A DNA stretch of 40,873 bases from a virus: positions 1-40,873 of the IMG/VR virus record IMGVR_UViG_3300042922_001480; one strand, 5' to 3'. Of this stretch, positions 1-30,285 are shown piece after piece. The notes under the pieces are model-generated. The model did no database searches, was not told where the DNA came from, and saw only the letters and a program-made list of their open reading frames with translations. The stretch's first letter is position 1; every line of letters begins with the position of its first letter. The position numbers and the translations under genes are program-made.

Positions 1-978
1 ATGGTCGCGCGGAAACGGACAGCAGTCGCCACAGACCCGATGCCCGAGCGCATCGAGCCATGCCTCGCTCTCCTCGTCTCGAAGCCGCCAGTCGGCCCGG
101 CATGGGCATTCGAAATCAAATGGGATGGTTACCGTTTGGCGCTCCATGTCGAGCCCGGCGGCGTTCGTGTGATCACCCGCGGCGGGCACGACTGGACCAC
201 GCGCTTTGCCCATCTGGCCGAAGCGGCGCGGCAGCTCGGCCCCTCGACCATGATCCTCGACGGTGAGGCGGTGGTGCTGGACGAGCAAGGCCGATCCGAC
301 TTCGGCCGGCTGCAAAAGGCGCTCGGCGGCCGGGGCGGCAAGCGGTTCGCCCGCGAGGCGATCTTCTATGCGTTCGATCTGCTCTATCTCGACGGCCGCG
401 ACCTGACGCGCGAACGGCTCTCCGAACGCCGCCGGATCCTCGAGACCATCGTGCCTGGCCAGGATGGCCTCATTCGGCTTTCCGAGGAGTTCGATGGGGA
501 TGGCAAGGTGCTGCTTCAGCACGCCTGCAAGCTCGGCCTCGAGGGCATAATCGGAAAGCGCCGCGACAAGCCGTACCGCTCCGGCCGGCTCGGCGACTGG
601 ATCAAGGCCAAGTGCGTGCAGAGCGATAGCTTCGCCATCGTCGGCTACGAGCTGTCGGAAAAGATGCGCGGCGTGATCGGCCGGCTGCTGCTGGCGGCCA
701 GGCGCGGCGGCGAGCTCGTCTATGTCGGCGGCGTTGGGACCGGCTTCACCCGCGACGAGCTGCGCGCGCTGAAGAAGCAGCTCGATGCCATCCGCACCAC
801 GAAGCCGCCGGTCAAGCTACGGCGCAAGGGTGCGGTGTTCGTTGAGCCGCAGCTTGTCGCCGAGATCGAGTTCCGCGGCTGGACCGATGAGCCGAAGCTG
901 CGTCATCCTTCCTATAAGGGGCTGCGCGAGAAGGCGGACCAGAGCGAGGTCATGGTGCTCGGCGCCGACATGGCGTGA
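1..978 (+). CDS. ATP-dependent DNA ligase, LigD ligase-domain type
   Basis: This 325-residue protein joins DNA ends using ATP and fits the ligase domain of bacterial LigD used in Ku-dependent end joining. The adenylation motif E38-I-K40-W-D-G-Y-R carries the nucleotidyl lysine K40. A motif III-like FYAFDLLYLDG, motif IV EGIIGK and motif V WIKAK follow in order, and the last 110 residues form the OB-fold part ending in the EFRGWTDEPKLRHPSYKG block typical of LigD. Polymerase and phosphoesterase domains are absent, so it is a stand-alone ligase. The ATG is the first base of the window, so a longer upstream start cannot be excluded. Ku is not in view. It is a host gene by context. Confidence 0.93.
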   Translation: MVARKRTAVATDPMPERIEPCLALLVSKPPVGPAWAFEIKWDGYRLALHVEPGGVRVITRGGHDWTTRFAHLAEAARQLGPSTMILDGEAVVLDEQGRSDFGRLQKALGGRGGKRFAREAIFYAFDLLYLDGRDLTRERLSERRRILETIVPGQDGLIRLSEEFDGDGKVLLQHACKLGLEGIIGKRRDKPYRSGRLGDWIKAKCVQSDSFAIVGYELSEKMRGVIGRLLLAARRGGELVYVGGVGTGFTRDELRALKKQLDAIRTTKPPVKLRRKGAVFVEPQLVAEIEFRGWTDEPKLRHPSYKGLREKADQSEVMVLGADMA

Positions 979-7977: not shown

Positions 7978-9907
7978 CCTGCCCAAGGATCTCGTAAGCG
8001 CGAGAGTTCGGGTGGCCATCCGGGATCTGCAAGGTGTTCGGCAAAGCGCCGATCGCGATTGCATCGGCATCCAGAACCGGATCTGCAAAGGGCAGCCAGA
8101 TTGCCAGCGGGTCGATCCACCGCTCGCCGTATAGCGTCTGTTGCTGCCCCCGAATGCTGATGATGTTATTGCGGTCAGCAACAGTCGTAGCAACCCGATA
8201 TATTGGCGACATCACCCGGTAGTCCATGCCCATGCTGACGCAGAAGGCAACCATCGCCTCGACATCAGCGACAACCGTCGCCGGATCGTTGACGTTGTTT
8301 TGCCCTGCCCAGATGACGCAATACTTGGAGCGCTGATCGTACCCGACCGCCAGCAGCCGCGTCCTGATCTGGGTCGACGTCTCGCCGAACACTCCAAGAT
8401 TGATGCAATGGGCGCTTAGGGCAGGCTGGCCGGACTGCCGGAACCCGCCGCCCCTCGCAAGGCCCAGTTGCCCCGGATAGGCAAGAGAGTTTCGAACCGA
8501 CTGCCCGTTCACCTCGAATTCCGGGAGCCATCCGTAGCTCAAGCTGTCGCCTGGGCAGATCGCGAAGTTCATCGGATCGCGGAAGGCGAGCGCGCGGAGC
8601 TCGGCTTCCGTAAGCTCCCGATTGTAGAGCGTGACCCGCTTGAGCACGCACGCACCGAATATCGATCCAGGGTTAGCGCCGAAGCGGGTCTCGCTCCAGA
8701 CAGGGATCGGCGAAGCATGCGCCGTCACGACCTGGGGGCTCCCGTTGAAGGACGCCCTCAATTCGGTTGGCGTCAATGTCCAGGCAACGCTGCCGGGTCT
8801 CTGCCCTCCGGTGGTGCCGAGTTCGCAGCTCGCAACCACAACGTTCCCGACGAGGTAGCGAACCTGAAGCGCATTGGCCGACGTCAGGTTGACCACCACA
8901 CGATTGTTGAGCGTGCCGTCGCCGATATACAACGCCGTCACCGCACCGGATGGACCAAAGCACGCGTCCGACAATGCCCACCATTCGACCACGCCGCCAT
9001 GCGCCCCTTGGGGCGGGGCGACGTTGCTGGTGACGGCATCGAGATTGCGCGTCGCCGCGGCCGTGCCGCTGCGGATCAGCTGGCCGCCAAAGGCGAAGTT
9101 GCTGTTGTGCTCGACGACAGCCAGGCCGCCGAGCCGAAGCGTGAAGTTCACCGCGGCCCCAGCGGTGACGGGGATCTGGAGTTCGCCGCGCATCCATGCC
9201 GTGCTGCCGCCACCAGAACCGCCGGGAACGAAGTAATCCCGCAACTGCGCATCCGGCTTCACAAGCTGCACGCCGACTGAGCCGCCGATCTCTGCAAACG
9301 CGGCCGTGAGATTGACGTGCCGGAGCGCCATGGTGCCGAGATTGGCGAGGCTGCCATTCGCCAGGGCAATGTGCGCCAGAGTGAAGCCGCGCACAGTGCC
9401 GGCAGCGGCGACCTTGTTGTTCGGAACGAAGTAGATCCGAATCGTTCCGTTGGCATCCGGCGCGCCCGTAAAGGCCAGGTCGAACGTCGGGACGCCGAGG
9501 TAAGTACCCGTCGCGACGACAGAATAGGCAAGCGTTCCTGCCGGAAGATCGATCGACATACCGCCCGGCAGCGTACCGGGATTGCCGGTCACGACGCCCG
9601 TCAGGTTCGTGTTGCAACCCTCCGAGGACCAGGCCTCTTCGATGACCAGGCCGCGATCGGTGATACGGGCGGTGTTCGCTGCAAAATCGACGATGTTGCC
9701 GTTCTTCGACTTGGCCGTCGCGTTCGTGCCGGCGCGCACCGCCGTCAGTTGCGCTGCGATATTGCCTTCGACGCCGCCGGCGTAAATCTTCCCCTCGGCG
9801 AAGCCATAGTCGACAAAGGCGCTTGGATCATACCAGGGCGTAACACCACCGCCGCCGGCAACGCCGCGCATCATTCCAAGGGCGAGCCCAAGACCAAGCT
9901 GCATCAT
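7955..9907 (-). CDS. tail protein with LamG-like and C-terminal SGNH hydrolase domains
   Basis: The 650-residue protein has a Gly-rich N-terminal part, a beta-rich concanavalin/LamG-like region (about 290-440, with GDGTLNNRVVVNL and VTLYNRELTEAELRAL) and a C-terminal SGNH/GDSL esterase. The catalytic blocks are visible: GDSLSYG with Ser455, NLGVFGETS, GQNN with Asn537, and DGH with Asp630 and His632. SGNH enzymes remove acetyl or acyl groups from sugars or lipids. As the last gene of the tail block it is a good candidate for a receptor-binding or surface-polysaccharide deacylating tail tip. ATG 9907 overlaps the preceding stop (ATGA). Confidence 0.85.
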   Translation of the reverse strand: MMQLGLGLALGMMRGVAGGGGVTPWYDPSAFVDYGFAEGKIYAGGVEGNIAAQLTAVRAGTNATAKSKNGNIVDFAANTARITDRGLVIEEAWSSEGCNTNLTGVVTGNPGTLPGGMSIDLPAGTLAYSVVATGTYLGVPTFDLAFTGAPDANGTIRIYFVPNNKVAAAGTVRGFTLAHIALANGSLANLGTMALRHVNLTAAFAEIGGSVGVQLVKPDAQLRDYFVPGGSGGGSTAWMRGELQIPVTAGAAVNFTLRLGGLAVVEHNSNFAFGGQLIRSGTAAATRNLDAVTSNVAPPQGAHGGVVEWWALSDACFGPSGAVTALYIGDGTLNNRVVVNLTSANALQVRYLVGNVVVASCELGTTGGQRPGSVAWTLTPTELRASFNGSPQVVTAHASPIPVWSETRFGANPGSIFGACVLKRVTLYNRELTEAELRALAFRDPMNFAICPGDSLSYGWLPEFEVNGQSVRNSLAYPGQLGLARGGGFRQSGQPALSAHCINLGVFGETSTQIRTRLLAVGYDQRSKYCVIWAGQNNVNDPATVVADVEAMVAFCVSMGMDYRVMSPIYRVATTVADRNNIISIRGQQQTLYGERWIDPLAIWLPFADPVLDADAIAIGALPNTLQIPDGHPNSRAYEILGQAIDQLLP

Positions 9908-24291: not shown

Positions 24292-25530
24292 TCAGTCCTC
24301 GTCGTCGAGCGGCGGCCCGCCATTGTGTCCGAGCGGCACGTTCTGTGACTGCACGGTGAGAACATCGCCGCCGGGGAGCGGCGGCAGGTTTTCCAGCCGG
24401 CGCACCTCGTTGCGCGTCATGATCCCGTTCTGCACCATCACGGTGTAGAAGGCGGCGCGAGCGGCGCTGTCGGTGCGGAGCAGGCCTTCGACCTTGAATT
24501 CCGGTTTCAGCGTCGCGCGCAGCGTCGCCGGGATGAGCGAGCGCTGCACCGCCTGCTCGATGCGGGAGAGGTATGGGCGTAGCGAGAAGGTAAGGAAGCC
24601 GATCAGCTGCTGCTCAAGGCCCGAACCCCAGCTGGTCGAATTCTGCGTATGGCCGACCATGAAGGGCGGCACACGGAACCAGCGACAAATCTCCTCGACA
24701 TGGAACTGCCTGGTTTCAAGAAACTGGCTGTCCTCCGGCGTCATGGTAACGGGCTGGAACGTAACACCGGCCTCAAGCACCATGACGCCACCAGCGTTTG
24801 AGCTGCCGACATAAGGCTCGACAATGTTCTCGCGGAGCTGCTTCCGCTGCTCGGGTTTCAATACCTCGTTGACTGTAAGGAAGCCGGTCGGCCGGATGCC
24901 GTTCGCGAACATCGATCCGGCCATCTCGTCGGCCGCGAGCGCCGTGCCCATGGACTGCCGGGCGAAGGCGATCGGCGAGAGGCCGACATCGCCAGCGCCG
25001 CCGAAGCCGCGCACGTGGAAGATCTCGTCCTCGCCATAGGTTCGGAAGCCCTTCGGGTCCGAGTAGCGATAGACGCGCGCGCCGCGCTCGTTGCGCGAAA
25101 CCTGCATGAGATCAGTAGACAGCGGCGTCAAAGCGACGAGACGATTGCCGATCATCTCTTTCTTTGAATAAGAGTTGCCTCCCAAGCACAAGGAAAGAAC
25201 CACACCTTCCCAAAACTCGACGGCAGTGTAGTCGGCACTGGGTGAGTCATGGATCAAAGCATAGAGCGGGTCATCGGCAGCGATCGTGCGGCTACCGTCC
25301 GCCGCCGTGCGATAAAGCATGAACGGAAGGGTCGCCACAGTCTCTGACAGCAATCGCATGCACGCCCAAGCAGCAGCGATCCGCATCGAGCCTTCTGGTG
25401 TGACGGCCTTTCCGGAAGCCGTCATGGCCGGGAAGGCAACTCGCCAAGATTCAGCGTCTCGCAATCCGAACCCGGCCCGGATCACCTGCTTCAGACGCGA
25501 AGCAAGGGTGAGCTTCGTGCTTCGCATCAT
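24292..25530 (-). CDS. portal protein, HK97 family
   Basis: The 412-residue portal forms the DNA entry ring of the capsid. Family blocks: VTPEGSMRIAAAWACMRLLS, SADYTAVEFWEGVVLSLCLG, DEIFHVRGFGGAGDVGLSPI, FRVPPFMVGHTQNSTSWGSG and GLEQQLIGFLTFSLRPYLSR, ending in the NEVRRLENLPPLPGGD tail. ATG 25530 overlaps the terminase stop (ATGA). Length is normal for the family. Confidence 0.95.
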   Translation of the reverse strand: MMRSTKLTLASRLKQVIRAGFGLRDAESWRVAFPAMTASGKAVTPEGSMRIAAAWACMRLLSETVATLPFMLYRTAADGSRTIAADDPLYALIHDSPSADYTAVEFWEGVVLSLCLGGNSYSKKEMIGNRLVALTPLSTDLMQVSRNERGARVYRYSDPKGFRTYGEDEIFHVRGFGGAGDVGLSPIAFARQSMGTALAADEMAGSMFANGIRPTGFLTVNEVLKPEQRKQLRENIVEPYVGSSNAGGVMVLEAGVTFQPVTMTPEDSQFLETRQFHVEEICRWFRVPPFMVGHTQNSTSWGSGLEQQLIGFLTFSLRPYLSRIEQAVQRSLIPATLRATLKPEFKVEGLLRTDSAARAAFYTVMVQNGIMTRNEVRRLENLPPLPGGDVLTVQSQNVPLGHNGGPPLDDED

Positions 25531-27245
25531 GAGTGCACCGGGTTCGCGAGGAAGTCATCGATACGGCTCTTGGCAACCGGGTTGCGGCTCATCATTTCGA
25601 CAGCGTTGAAGCTCGCCATCAGCGGGTCGATCTTCGAGCTGCCGGTCCGCTTCTCGATGTAGACATTGCTGCCGCGTTGCTCACATCGGGCATTCTCGAC
25701 GCACCAGCGCAGCAGTGCCGAGCCGCCGTGCTTCATCGTACCGTCGGCGAGCTTTCGCTCTGTGCCGAATATCGCCGAGGAAAGCCGGTAACCCTGCGTC
25801 ACCGCCGCCACCATCGGCTCGCCGATGCCGTAGGAGGCGAGCTCCTCGAGGAGCGCGGGAACGCCGGCCGGGTCCAGGCCGATCGCGTTCGCATCCGGCA
25901 AGAGCCCTTCCTGCCAGAGATCAACGATGATCTGCGCGGCCTCCTCGGCGTCTTGCGTGACGCGCTCGCATATGACCAGCGTGCGCTCCGCCTCGAAATC
26001 GGCGAGCTTGCTGACGATCTCCTTATGCCGCTCCAGCACCTTCTTCTGCGCCCAGGCTTTTGCCCACAGCATCCAGTGCCGGGTGACCTTGTGCCGCCCG
26101 ATGACGGCGAGGCCCCACAGATCGTCGAGGCCGCCGACATCGCCGCCGACCACGCAGACGTCGGCATTCGCCTTGATGTAGTCGAGCGTGACGCGCCGGT
26201 CGGTCGCCTCGGTCCAGAAGTCGGCGCCGATCCAGCGATCATCGTGCATCGCCATGCCGATCTCGATATTGAGATGCTGGCTGGCCCAGCGGCGCGCCGC
26301 CTCCTCGCCCTTCTTCCACTCGGTCTGCCACTCGCCATTGAGGCGGTCGACGCTCAGCGAGCGGCCGAGGTTAGGCAGCACCAAACTCCAGTTCTTCGTG
26401 TCTTTCCACGGCAGCGTCGGATCGAGCTGCATCGCCTCTGGGAATTCGTAGAGCACCGGCAGCATCCTGACGCCCTCGGTGATCTTACCGTCGCGCACCG
26501 CGCGGGCGTACTGCAGCTCCTCCTTGAAGATGCCGAACGGCGGCACCTCAGACTGCGTGGTGATGATGATCAGCAGGCTTTCCGGATTGGTGATCATGCC
26601 GCCGCGGATCTGGCCGAGCACGCGCCTGGCGGAGGGCGATTCCGCCATGACGTGCAGCTCATCAAGGATCGCGAAGGCCGGGATCGAGCCGGTGACCACC
26701 TTCGGATCGAAGCTCTTGATCTTGAGCCGGGCATTCATGCGAACACCCGTGCGCTCGTCGACATGTAGATCGACGATCGTCTTCTTGTGGTCGATGACCT
26801 TGAACCGCCGCGACAGATAGGCATCCGCCTCGATCATGGCGCATGCCTGCATGAAGCACTTGTCGGCCACCTCCTGCGTCGGCCCAATGATGACGCCGTC
26901 GATGTTCGGCCGGCGGTTCATCATCAGCGCGATGAGGCCGAGCGCCGCCGCGTTCGTCGTCTTGCCGTTCTTCTTCGGCACCAGGTTGAACAACTCGCCA
27001 ACGAAGCGCTCGCCAGACCTCGGATCGATCGATCCGAAGGCCGCGCGCACGATGTCGCGCATCCACTCCCCGGCCGCCTCGCCCATGGTCGGCATGCCGG
27101 GGATGTCCGGAATACGCAGCTTGTTGAACAGGGCCACCGCGCACTCGGCGAGCACCTCGTCGAGCGGCAGCACCGGAATAGGCGTCTGCCCGGCCTTCAG
27201 CTTGTCGAACCAGTCGGGGCAAGCGAACGAAATGCCCTCGGGCAT
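25527..27245 (-). CDS. terminase large subunit
   Basis: The 572-residue packaging motor has a Walker A-like VPKKNGKTT (89-97), Walker B FAILDE (191-196) with catalytic Glu and a coupling block IIITTQSEV. The C-terminal nuclease has the acidic motif VVGGDVGGLDDLWG (Asp369) and ends with RTGSSKIDPLMASFNAVEMM. This is the HK97-type TerL family, usual in phages with cohesive ends. ATG 27245 overlaps the TerS stop (TGATG). Confidence 0.95.
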   Translation of the reverse strand: MPEGISFACPDWFDKLKAGQTPIPVLPLDEVLAECAVALFNKLRIPDIPGMPTMGEAAGEWMRDIVRAAFGSIDPRSGERFVGELFNLVPKKNGKTTNAAALGLIALMMNRRPNIDGVIIGPTQEVADKCFMQACAMIEADAYLSRRFKVIDHKKTIVDLHVDERTGVRMNARLKIKSFDPKVVTGSIPAFAILDELHVMAESPSARRVLGQIRGGMITNPESLLIIITTQSEVPPFGIFKEELQYARAVRDGKITEGVRMLPVLYEFPEAMQLDPTLPWKDTKNWSLVLPNLGRSLSVDRLNGEWQTEWKKGEEAARRWASQHLNIEIGMAMHDDRWIGADFWTEATDRRVTLDYIKANADVCVVGGDVGGLDDLWGLAVIGRHKVTRHWMLWAKAWAQKKVLERHKEIVSKLADFEAERTLVICERVTQDAEEAAQIIVDLWQEGLLPDANAIGLDPAGVPALLEELASYGIGEPMVAAVTQGYRLSSAIFGTERKLADGTMKHGGSALLRWCVENARCEQRGSNVYIEKRTGSSKIDPLMASFNAVEMMSRNPVAKSRIDDFLANPVHS

Positions 27246-27736
27246 CAGTGCCGCCGGCCCATCTTCGCGAAGATGTCCCCGTAGTCATCAGGGATCATCT
27301 GCGCGTCCTGCAGCGCCTGCTCCTTCTTGCCGAGCGCCTTCGGCTTATCCTCGGCCTCCGGCTCGTCGTCCTCCGCGTCGGCATGGTTGCGGGGCGCAGC
27401 CGGCGCGGCGGTTTTGATCATAGCGTAGAGCTGCTTGATCGCCTGGACCTTGCCTTCGCGCACCAGCTTCATGAGCACGTCGAGCATGACGCCCTCGGTA
27501 AGCACCGCGCCGTATTCGAGCTCGCGGGAAAAATACTTCCGGAGCGTCTTCTCATCGACGCCCATGTTCTCGGCGATCCGCCTCTGCGACCAGCCGGCCG
27601 CCGCGCGTATCGCAACAAACTCTTGATTTTCCTTGTCTTTCTTGAAAGACGGCCGGCCGCGGCGATCTCGTATCGGCGCGATCGGCGCGCCGAACAGATC
27701 GACATCGGGGCGGGGTTCGGAATTCTCGTCAGCCAC
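27245..27736 (-). CDS. terminase small subunit-like protein
   Basis: The 163-residue protein has a helix-turn-helix near residues 49-68 (WSQRRIAENMGVDEKTLRKY), a helical oligomerisation region (LDVLMKLVREGKVQAIKQLY) and an acidic tail. It lies directly before TerL and would recognise the packaging site. The start is GTG at 27736 with GGAG 11 bases upstream, a weak site. Adjacent HNH gene and TerL order support the call. Confidence 0.8.
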   Translation of the reverse strand: MADENSEPRPDVDLFGAPIAPIRDRRGRPSFKKDKENQEFVAIRAAAGWSQRRIAENMGVDEKTLRKYFSRELEYGAVLTEGVMLDVLMKLVREGKVQAIKQLYAMIKTAAPAAPRNHADAEDDEPEAEDKPKALGKKEQALQDAQMIPDDYGDIFAKMGRRH

Positions 27737-27821: not shown

Positions 27822-28181
27822 TCACCGGACGGCCCGGCGCTCCTCGATCTGCTTCAGCCGATCGTGGCAGGGCTTGCAGAGGGTCTGCAGGTTCGCGTCA
27901 TCCCAGAACAGGCGCTCATCGCCTCGGTGCGGCACGATGTGATCGCACACGAGTTGAGAGGTGTTGCCTTCAATGCGACCGCAGCCGCGCATACGGCAGG
28001 TGAACAGATCGCGGGTGAAGATGGCGATGCGCTTCTTCCGCCAGCGCTCGGTGTCGTACCAGGCACGCCACGGTGCGGACGTGCGACGCAACTGTGTGCG
28101 CTGCCGTTCGTCGCTGGTTTGGATTGCAATGCGCGATAGCGCAGGTGAGATGCGAGAGGGCAGCGCCTTGAGGCGTGGCAT
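27822..28181 (-). CDS. HNH endonuclease of the packaging module
   Basis: The 119-residue protein has the HNH signature VCDHIVPHRGDERLFWDDAN then LQTLCKPCHDRLK, with CRMRGC and CKPC cysteine pairs for zinc. HNH proteins next to terminase genes help TerL cut cos-type packaging sites in HK97-like phages. ATG 28181 follows the terminator at 28203-28234. The 85 bases between its end and TerS may hold part of the packaging site. Confidence 0.9.
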   Translation of the reverse strand: MPRLKALPSRISPALSRIAIQTSDERQRTQLRRTSAPWRAWYDTERWRKKRIAIFTRDLFTCRMRGCGRIEGNTSQLVCDHIVPHRGDERLFWDDANLQTLCKPCHDRLKQIEERRAVR

Positions 28182-28202
28182 GGAGGGAACACCTCAGAAT
28201 AG

Positions 28203-28234
28203 AAAAGGCCCGAAGCGTTTCCGCTCGGGCCTTT
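28203..28234 (-). terminator. terminator after the RiPP-like peptide gene, before the late operon
   Basis: A 13-bp stem with one bulged A (28204-28217 with 28222-28234, UUUC-type loop) is followed on the minus strand by UUUUCUAUUCU. It ends the small unit containing 28261-28380 and insulates the HNH-terminase operon. The plus side has only a short U run. Confidence 0.75.
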
Positions 28235-28260
28235 GAGAATGCTCCCGGATGAGGAAGCGG

Positions 28261-28380
28261 TCAGGTGCCGTTCTGGACCGGCCCTGGCTTGCCCTTCTTT
28301 CCGGAGAAGGCCGCGCCTGCCGTCACCGCCGAAAGCGTGCCGGCCTTTGCAAGGACAGGTGCCGTATAGATCTTCCGCAT
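28261..28380 (-). CDS. 39-residue peptide with lasso-RiPP leader motif
   Basis: The peptide begins MRKIYTAPVLAKAGTLSAVT. It fits the lasso leader consensus Y-xx-P-x-L-xxx-G-xxxxx-T exactly (Y5, P8, L10, G14, T20), with A21 and G22 next, where lasso cores start with Gly after Thr at -2. The following 18 residues (GAAFSGKKGKPGPVQNGT) would be the core, but it lacks the Asp or Glu at ring positions 7-9, so no classic lasso ring can form. Ribosome site AGGGGG lies before ATG 28380. No protease or cyclase gene is in the window. It has a candidate promoter and its own terminator. Function unknown; it could be modified by host enzymes or be a divergent leader-like small protein. Confidence 0.7.
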   Translation of the reverse strand: MRKIYTAPVLAKAGTLSAVTAGAAFSGKKGKPGPVQNGT

Positions 28381-28419
28381 ATCGTCCCCCTAAGTAACGC
28401 TCACCATGGGTTGAGCGCC

Positions 28420-28450
28420 ATTAGGATCGCTGAAGACGGCGGCAAGTCAA
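28420..28450 (-). promoter_or_regulatory. candidate promoter of the RiPP-like peptide
   Basis: On the minus strand TTGACT (28445-28450) and CCTAAT (28420-28425) are 19 bases apart, a loose housekeeping-type promoter that would start a transcript about 30 bases before the peptide ATG. Spacing is longer than ideal. Confidence 0.3.
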
Positions 28451-28483
28451 GGAGGGGTGATACCGGACCATGCCGCCCTCCAG

Positions 28484-28521
28484 AAACAACTATGCCCGGC
28501 CGCGTCTCCGCTCCGGGCATA
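28484..28521 (-). terminator. possible terminator after the AT-hook gene
   Basis: A perfect 9-bp stem (28491-28499 with 28513-28521, loop of 13) is followed on the minus strand by GUUGUUUCU, a poor U run. It lies between the stop of the 28572-29228 gene and the peptide gene, and would separate the two units. Confidence 0.45.
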
Positions 28522-28571: not shown

Positions 28572-29228
28572 TCAAGGATTGGAATAGACAATCCGGACTT
28601 CTTTTTCATCATGTCCCCATGAAGGCCGCTCAGCACGCACGCCAGACACCCTGACGTCGGGTTCCTCGCCCGGTGCTCGATCCTCCATGCGCCAGAGCCG
28701 GCAGAAGGCCAAAAGCCCCGATCGGAGCAACCGCAAATCATCGTCACGACAAGGCTCGTCTTTGATCACCACCGCTTCCAGAACGGCGAACACGTTGCTG
28801 GCCTCGGGCAAAGCCCGGATCGCCCGCATCGCAGCGCCGTGCGCCTTCAGCACACGAGCGCGCTTCTGCACCTCCGACTCGGGGCACTCCGCTGCGAGAT
28901 GATCGGCCTCCATCGGCTGTTCCATACCGGGCGCCACCATGCCGGCGAGCGCCGAGCTCGTCTGCATGGGCGTGGCGAGCACGACATGGAACTCCCGCAC
29001 CACACCGCGCCAGCGCTCGGCGGCCCAATACTTCGCCTCGGAGATCACACCGCTCAGGAACATGCGGCCGATCTCCGTCGCCGCCCGCTGATCCTTGCGC
29101 AGATCCTCGGCGAGGCCACGCCGGTGCGGCTGCGCGCACACCACATCCCGCACATCTCGCGGCTTTTGGGAAAGCTTCCCCGAAGGGAACCGCTTGCCCT
29201 GCTTCCTCGGCCTTCCGCGCCTTGCCAT
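28572..29228 (-). CDS. hypothetical phage protein with N-terminal AT-hook, 218 aa
   Basis: The protein starts MARRGRPRKQGKRFPSGK, which contains an AT-hook-like RGRP core for minor-groove DNA binding. The remainder is helical (ERWRGVVREFHVVLATPMQT; KAHGAAMRAIRALPEASNVF) with no recognised domain. ATG 29228 has AGGAGG upstream; the earlier ATG at 29261 is poor. It is the last gene of the replication arm before the late operon, the place where lambda-like phages keep the late activator Q, so a regulatory role is possible but unproven. Confidence 0.6.
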   Translation of the reverse strand: MARRGRPRKQGKRFPSGKLSQKPRDVRDVVCAQPHRRGLAEDLRKDQRAATEIGRMFLSGVISEAKYWAAERWRGVVREFHVVLATPMQTSSALAGMVAPGMEQPMEADHLAAECPESEVQKRARVLKAHGAAMRAIRALPEASNVFAVLEAVVIKDEPCRDDDLRLLRSGLLAFCRLWRMEDRAPGEEPDVRVSGVRAERPSWGHDEKEVRIVYSNP

Positions 29229-29238
29229 ACTCGCCTCC

Positions 29239-30285
29239 TCAAATCCCTTGCCGCAACACATCCCGATCCGCTTCCGTCATCCCGCCCGGCGGGCCGGTCT
29301 TGCCGCCGTCGCCCTTGGGCGGATAGCGCTGCGGGAAGGTTCGGCCCTTGTGCTCGCTCTGCACCCAGCCGCCGTCGCTGCCGCGCACCAGCTCGTGCCG
29401 CCCCATGGTGAAGCGATTGGCGAAGCCAGCTTGCCGATAGGCTGCATGCCATGCCGCCCAGGCGTCGGTTCCTTCCTCGACGAACACCCATTGCGAGCGA
29501 TCGGCCGCACCGGACATCGCCCACAGCACGGCCCGCTTGATCGGGTCATCCTCGATCGGTCGCGGAGCCGGCTCAGCCTTGGTGTGGATGGCAGGAAAGT
29601 TCTTCCAGCGCCGTTCGTTCAGGAACGACGCGGGATCGCAGACACGCCGCTTGATGGCTCGGCAATGGGCGAGGTAGCGCGGCAGGCCAGCCAGGGCCTC
29701 GGCCCGCTCGACGGTGGAGAGCCGAGCCCATGCCCGCATCGCCTTGCGCTCGGAATAGGCCGGATCCGGCTGGAATGTCTCGATGAAGACGGCGAACTGC
29801 GTGTCCGGCCTGCTCTCCCCTTCCCCATCCCCATGTTCGGCTTCGCCCGCTCCGTCCCCCTCGGGGGCTATGGGGGGTTCTTCTATTGACGGTTCAATTG
29901 ACGGTTCCTGTGTTGTCACAGTTGACAAGGGGGCCTTGTCACCGCTGACAAGGGGGGCCTCGTCAGATTGACGAGGGGGGGCCTTGTCAATCTGACAAGG
30001 GGGGGTGCCCTTCTGCACCGTGATCAGAAGGCGGATCATGTCGCTCGTGCGCCCGCCATTCGGGCCGACGCGCGGCGTCCGCTCGATCAGCCCGGCCGCC
30101 TCGAGGTCGGCCAGCCGGCGCGAGACGGTTTCCGGGCTCTGCACGCTGCGCTCGGCCAGCATGCGGCGGCTCGGCCAGCAGCAATGCTCCTCGTCGGCAT
30201 AGTCGGCGAGCGCCATCAGCACCAGCTTGGCGCCCGGCGCGAGAGACGTGATCCGCCACGCCCAATAGGATGCATCGACACTCAC
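29239..30285 (-). CDS. phage replication protein, winged-helix N-terminus (O-like)
   Basis: The 348-residue protein has an N-terminal winged helix (WRITSLAPGAKLVLMALADY; RRMLAERSVQSPETVSRRLA; DLEAAGLIERTPRVGPNGG), a low-complexity, acidic and proline-rich linker (about 95-160) and a helical C-terminal part (RKAMRAWARLSTVERAEALA). This is the layout of lambda O-like initiators. The linker region is encoded by short inverted repeats that look like iterons. It starts at GTG 30285, overlapping the methyltransferase stop (GTGA). No helicase or helicase loader is recognised nearby. Confidence 0.7.
   Translation of the reverse strand: MSVDASYWAWRITSLAPGAKLVLMALADYADEEHCCWPSRRMLAERSVQSPETVSRRLADLEAAGLIERTPRVGPNGGRTSDMIRLLITVQKGTPPCQIDKAPPRQSDEAPLVSGDKAPLSTVTTQEPSIEPSIEEPPIAPEGDGAGEAEHGDGEGESRPDTQFAVFIETFQPDPAYSERKAMRAWARLSTVERAEALAGLPRYLAHCRAIKRRVCDPASFLNERRWKNFPAIHTKAEPAPRPIEDDPIKRAVLWAMSGAADRSQWVFVEEGTDAWAAWHAAYRQAGFANRFTMGRHELVRGSDGGWVQSEHKGRTFPQRYPPKGDGGKTGPPGGMTEADRDVLRQGI
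29913..30000. repeat. iteron-like inverted repeats inside the replication gene, candidate origin
   Basis: Eight half-sites of TGACAA/TTGTCA type (two of them TGACGA/CGTCAG) occur in 88 bases at 29913, 29922, 29936, 29946, 29961, 29969, 29985 and 29993. Pairs form TGACAAGG-G-rich-CCTTGTCA palindromes with a unit of 23-24 bases. In protein they give an 8-residue repeat (DKAPP, DEAPL, DKAPL). A similar set sits in lambda O at the phage origin. Confidence 0.6.

Follow-up and report, generated by a model that had tools for sequence, protein, structure and literature searches.

The question raised by this locus is whether an open reading frame of 39 residues carried by a phage, with a leader of the kind that precedes lasso peptides, is a gene at all and, if so, what kind of peptide it encodes. 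It lies on the minus strand at 28261–28380 of the window, by which is meant the whole stretch of 40,873 nucleotides analysed (IMGVR_UViG_3300042922_001480). The initial annotation described an orphan peptide that might be matured by host enzymes, act as a decoy leader for them or show that the leader fold serves another purpose. As set out below, 28261–28380 is a real gene and its product is not a lasso peptide; it is considered likely to be a functional RiPP precursor acting in trans, a moron of a temperate siphophage that is matured by the host into a linear modified peptide and belongs to a dispersed pool of such precursors.

Translation of the gene gives MRKIYTAPVLAKAGTLSAVTA as the leader, followed by GAAFSGKKGKPGPVQNGT as the core. 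The leader (21 residues; 28318–28380, minus strand) is conserved, contains a YxxPxL motif and ends in LSAVTA, and the positions singled out by the initial annotation (Tyr5, Pro8, Leu10, Gly14, Thr20 and the Thr(−2)/Gly(+1) junction) are all present as described. In the profile search that had been recommended as a check, the 39-residue peptide narrowly passed NCBIfam NF033521 (lasso_leader_L3) with 19.3 bits (E 8e-4) against a cutoff of 19 bits, the match covering residues 5–22, so that a lasso-type leader with Thr(−2) is recognised. The predicted core (28264–28317, minus strand), its cut site being placed from Thr(−2), contains FSGKK, which is invariant in all 24 aligned family members including that of the window, and has Ala where nearly all other copies have Asn (GAAFSGKK). 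The remark that core positions 7–9 hold no acid was confirmed: Asp and Glu are absent there from the window core (GAAFSGKKGK) and from all 24 FSGKK precursors.

The peptide is an orphan within the window and not within its host. The draft genome of the genus Ancylobacter that contains the window (G000; 222 contigs, 91.65% complete, 7.5% contamination) has 11 homologues with E values from 4e-9 to 5e-5, giving 12 copies with that of the window: nine tandem precursors at C9:95976–97443, a single copy at C9:102796 heading the B1 operon, and an orphan at C84:146518. Across 392 genomes of the family, FSGKK peptides were found in two, both Ancylobacter; the second, G022, is a complete genome of 6.29 Mb with the same enzyme and array locus and five dispersed orphan precursors, one of them within a related prophage. 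The assignment of C9 and C84 to one organism rests on matches to G022 (91% identity between the B2 proteins; a 7.5 kb flank on C84 at 87.5%). The C84 orphan and an orphan of G022, at 1.72 Mb, each lie less than 2 kb from a tRNA-Val(cac). In G022 the array locus stands between a flavin monooxygenase-like gene and a disrupted duplicate of that gene (L025 7096–8148 and 15204–15845), and gives the impression of an inserted island. Elsewhere in G022, a gene for a RiPP enzyme of the MbnB/TglH/ChrH type and a DUF2282 gene (L028 4817–6101) stand about 4 kb from an orphan precursor.

Divergence within the coding regions, when pooled, amounted to a pS of 0.55 against a pN of 0.19, and the precursor family is, judged from its sequences, under purifying selection. 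The window copy differs from the G022 orphans by a pS of 0.47–0.62 and a pN of 0.13–0.19, and from the precursor heading the B1 operon of its own host by a pS of 0.80 and a pN of 0.25; since it is nearer to the former, it may have been brought by the phage from a different Ancylobacter lineage. A chance reading frame devoid of function would accord with the shortness of the peptide and with the lack of any match in a protein search of 50,697 phage records. Peptide-alignment scans of genome and viral contigs and a degenerate DNA pattern run on the viral contigs likewise confirmed nothing, confirmation by tblastn being difficult for a peptide this short. That reading is contradicted by the family of homologous precursors, the pS/pN values and the promoter element and insertion footprint described below; it was rejected and is given practically no credence.

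Around the C9 array are encoded a PqqD/B1 protein (RRE), B2, an HprK-like kinase, NTP_transf_5, an AMP-ligase, a GNAT and an ACP-like protein, so that the RRE/B1 and B2 proposed to be sought elsewhere in the host genome were found, beside near-identical precursors, and maturation by host enzymes gains support. The only B2 of G000 matched the lasso B2 peptidase model with 50.9 bits (cutoff 33). The cyclase sought along with them was not found: the 92% complete G000 yielded a single 26-bit fragment and no full-length match to PF00733 (the Asn_synthase/cyclase family), the complete genome G011, which has a related locus, yielded no full-length match either, and the L009 and L025 loci include no gene for a macrolactam cyclase. 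Together with the absence of an acid at positions 7–9 from every FSGKK core, this argues against a lasso pathway. A lasso precursor whose cyclase is encoded at some other genomic locus, for which the NF033521 match and the B2 enzyme might speak, was rejected on these grounds and is thought extremely unlikely, and the cyclase-less RRE/B2 locus supports the earlier suggestion that the leader serves another purpose. As for a decoy, whose leader would occupy the host RRE and thereby block the maturation of host peptides, the leader is intact and the RRE is present; a decoy, however, needs no core, and here conservation is as strict in the core as in the leader, which renders this function very improbable.

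The signals around the gene indicate a transcription unit of its own. The ribosome binding site reported earlier is AGGGGGA at 28385–28391 (minus strand), its GGGGG being kept in most lead copies. The candidate promoter fared less simply: a consensus scan listed no sigma-70 site for the peptide gene, but a TTGAC element at −70 (28446–28450, minus strand), putatively the −35 element, is shared with ten other lead copies, so that all 11 first-in-unit copies have it between −59 and −71, where its chance occurrence is about 1.25% per copy. In seven copies a GCAACAC box lies 42–44 bp upstream of TTGAC; the window copy has TTGAC without this box and instead its own inverted repeat, CGCTCA-N8-TGAGCG (28398–28417), a possible operator between promoter and ribosome binding site and the sole exact copy in the window. 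The pattern GCAACAC-N34-38-TTGAC had seven matches in G022, six of them at precursors, with none for the reversed control, and two in G000, one at a precursor, with four for the reversed control. Both terminators noted earlier are strong hairpins when their folding is compared with that of shuffled sequences. The one behind the peptide, with a T tract (28204–28234, minus strand), reached −23.9 kcal/mol with flanks (z −4.45), but the upstream one (28491–28521, minus strand; z −4.0) belongs to the preceding gene for a 229-residue protein and also occurs in relatives without the peptide.

Promoter, peptide and terminator form an inserted cassette of about 287–290 bp (28182–28468, minus strand), delimited by alignment with empty sites, the exact ends being inferred. 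Its left neighbour is that 229-residue phage gene, with an AT-hook-like N end (28572–29261, minus strand; phrog_15385), and its right neighbour is an HNH endonuclease gene (27822–28181, minus strand; PF01844, phrog_589), at whose start codon the cassette is positioned. To the left of the cassette, alignment with the empty site of G012 and L067 identifies TGGAGGGCGGCATG (28469–28482, minus strand) as what is left of the ribosome site and start codon of the ancestral HNH gene, and the window has a new HNH start 3' of the cassette. The empty site in the G012 prophage is a gap of about 110 bp that holds the terminator and the HNH start GGAGGTTGGCATG; the viral contig L067 has the same sequence there. 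In Mesorhizobium phage vB_MseS-P1 the genes stand in the same order and the gap measures 128 bp. A different ORF occupies the cassette position in contig L071. A separate unit between phage genes that is missing from relatives is one mark of a phage moron, the other being expression in the lysogen, which is here predicted; the footprint and empty sites bear out the claim that the peptide gene is a separate unit carried by a phage.

Next to the HNH gene come a 163-residue gene in the position of the terminase small subunit (27245–27736, minus strand; unknown phrog) and the terminase large subunit (25527–27245, minus strand; TerL phrog_9, E 3e-97); with portal, head, tape-measure, endolysin and replication genes also present, the prophage is of the siphophage type. 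It is bounded by a 25-bp repeat at C84:285739 and 329313, at a tRNA-Gln, and the entire window is therefore inside it. The putative integrase at C84:286770–288032, for which Pfam gave nothing, is named by guess. The related prophage of G022 is bounded by a 17-bp repeat at a tRNA-Phe (2937384 and 2984167) and holds an orphan precursor at 2942109, preceded by the GCAACAC box and at a phage position different from that in the window; the homologues that had been sought in related phages are thus represented by one, elsewhere in its genome, and most relatives are without. Both prophages have a gene for an ATP-dependent DNA ligase at the same end (window 1–978; L026 16114–17091 in G022). A divergent orphan precursor of G022, MGISGKKPYTPPTLKKSAVLSSVTAAPVSRSGG... 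(L059, about 9215–9376), lies about 0.6 kb from a tRNA-Gln, at which the window prophage has integrated in G000.

The cassette might be a passive hitch-hiker that entered the prophage through whatever process dispersed the chromosomal orphans, and that is perhaps matured with no gain to the phage. G000, G022 and other genera all have scattered orphans, and the two prophages carry their precursors at different places, with no fixed phage position; against this, pN/pS is low in comparison with the G022 orphans, though the selection cannot be dated to the time spent in the phage, and a near-identical phage contig (L070), which starts within the peptide core, keeps it with one synonymous change. 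Such passive carriage comes close to an even chance. That the phage borrows a host pathway for linear phosphopeptides in trans and that its own peptide benefits the prophage, as a signal, exclusion or competition factor, is put forward only tentatively and seems rather doubtful.

For the preferred reading, a host-matured linear peptide, the following course is proposed, in an order that we infer. The peptide would be expressed in the lysogen from its own transcription unit, and the host RRE protein B1, encoded on a different contig, would bind its YxxP leader. The HprK-like kinase would phosphorylate the conserved core Ser, B2 as a cysteine peptidase would cleave after Thr(−2)-Ala(−1), and NTP_transf_5 and the ligase-ACP-GNAT set would modify the peptide further, probably by attaching an acyl chain to Lys. 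The result would be a linear modified product rather than a lasso, with one enzyme set serving the dispersed precursors; virus and host would probably share one peptide-making pathway. The best reading of the genes is a product predicted to be linear, Ser-phosphorylated and probably Lys-acylated. This offers a concrete case, open to testing, of a phage supplying substrate to a host pathway.

The kinase profile matches HPr kinases, and the AlphaFold model of the enzyme (pLDDT 91.9) finds its best match among PEP carboxykinases, whose fold is related to that of HPr kinase. Its His, Lys, Asp and Asp are invariant in 19 sequences, a motif named in PMC9266682. The closest described family is that of the linear polyphosphorylated peptides (LPPs) reported from Bacillota (Popov et al. 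2026, PMC13381572), with which the present system shares a discrete RRE, a YxxP leader, an HprK-like kinase and an NTP transferase in the absence of a macrolactam cyclase, as well as a Ser near the N terminus of the core, the phosphorylation of which is here predicted. LPPs employ an SpI (signal-peptidase)-type leader peptidase, whereas a lasso B2 cysteine peptidase is found here, in alphaproteobacteria, together with an acylation module that is not always present and with precursors spread across genome and phages. Phosphorylated lasso peptides (paeninodin, pseudomycoidin, Bsf type; PMC9266682, PMC10368454) likewise have B1, B2, an HprK-like kinase, a nucleotidyltransferase-like protein and a leader ending with Thr(−2), but also cyclase C; here neither that cyclase nor a ring-closing acid was found. 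The system is set apart from both and is probably a pathway to linear, phosphorylated peptides of a kind so far undescribed for these bacteria, adding a B2-dependent, cyclase-less alphaproteobacterial branch, in part with an acylation module, to the newly described linear phosphopeptides. Prochlorosins (PMC10783134) also rely on a single enzyme set for many precursors, with unrelated chemistry and leader, and phage is absent from the text of that paper. RiPP mining seeks precursors beside enzymes; here they are scattered over the chromosome and two prophages, with one enzyme set, and are linked by a promoter element that they have in common.

Beyond Ancylobacter, a B2 search across the order (E 1e-15) found related loci in 17 of 397 genomes, and such loci also occur in named Mesorhizobium and Chelativorans records; B1, B2, HprK and NTP_transf_5 were all present in the 25 loci examined. 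Since a search of 385 class genomes at E 1e-20 matched the own genome alone, no claim is made past the order. Among 56 precursors collected manually from 14 loci or groups, precursors not being found for most Mesorhizobium loci, 55 have a Ser within the first nine core residues counted from the predicted cut. Each of the five lineages that have AMP-ligase, GNAT and ACP shows Lys in the core of every precursor, as against one of nine lineages lacking this acylation module (Fisher p 0.003, from few lineages and hand-curated lists), an association that offers a lead to acylation rather than proof. The converse, that Lys in the core implies a GNAT, was weakened by G520 and G663, in which the cores have Lys but a GNAT is missing, so that only the direction from module to Lys holds. 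Selidamides and nostolysamides have a leader type different from that of the present precursors. These GNAT-acylated RiPPs (PMC9505594, PMC13060382) share a GNAT in the locus and a Lys in the core, the differences being the separate AMP ligase and ACP found here and that acylation is here predicted.

G627, G746, G757 and G433 have precursor arrays near which no pathway gene was found, and G548 has a similar lone precursor; since these enzyme-free arrays lie in other genera, trans-acting precursors look general in this B1-B2-HprK-NTP_transf_5 family. The arrays of G627, G746 and G757, which are of one genus (L218, L219 and L221), each consist of five tandem precursors in the same position beside a kinase-type sugar gene, with cores that contain Cys (such as PVSNCQV) and no enzymes nearby. 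In G548 (L195 7457–7852), a lasso-type leader, PYHKPTLTKGSVLSDVTA, is fused to a domain (SDIRLKRDIHPIG...) that we take to resemble the S74 chaperone domain of phage tail spikes.
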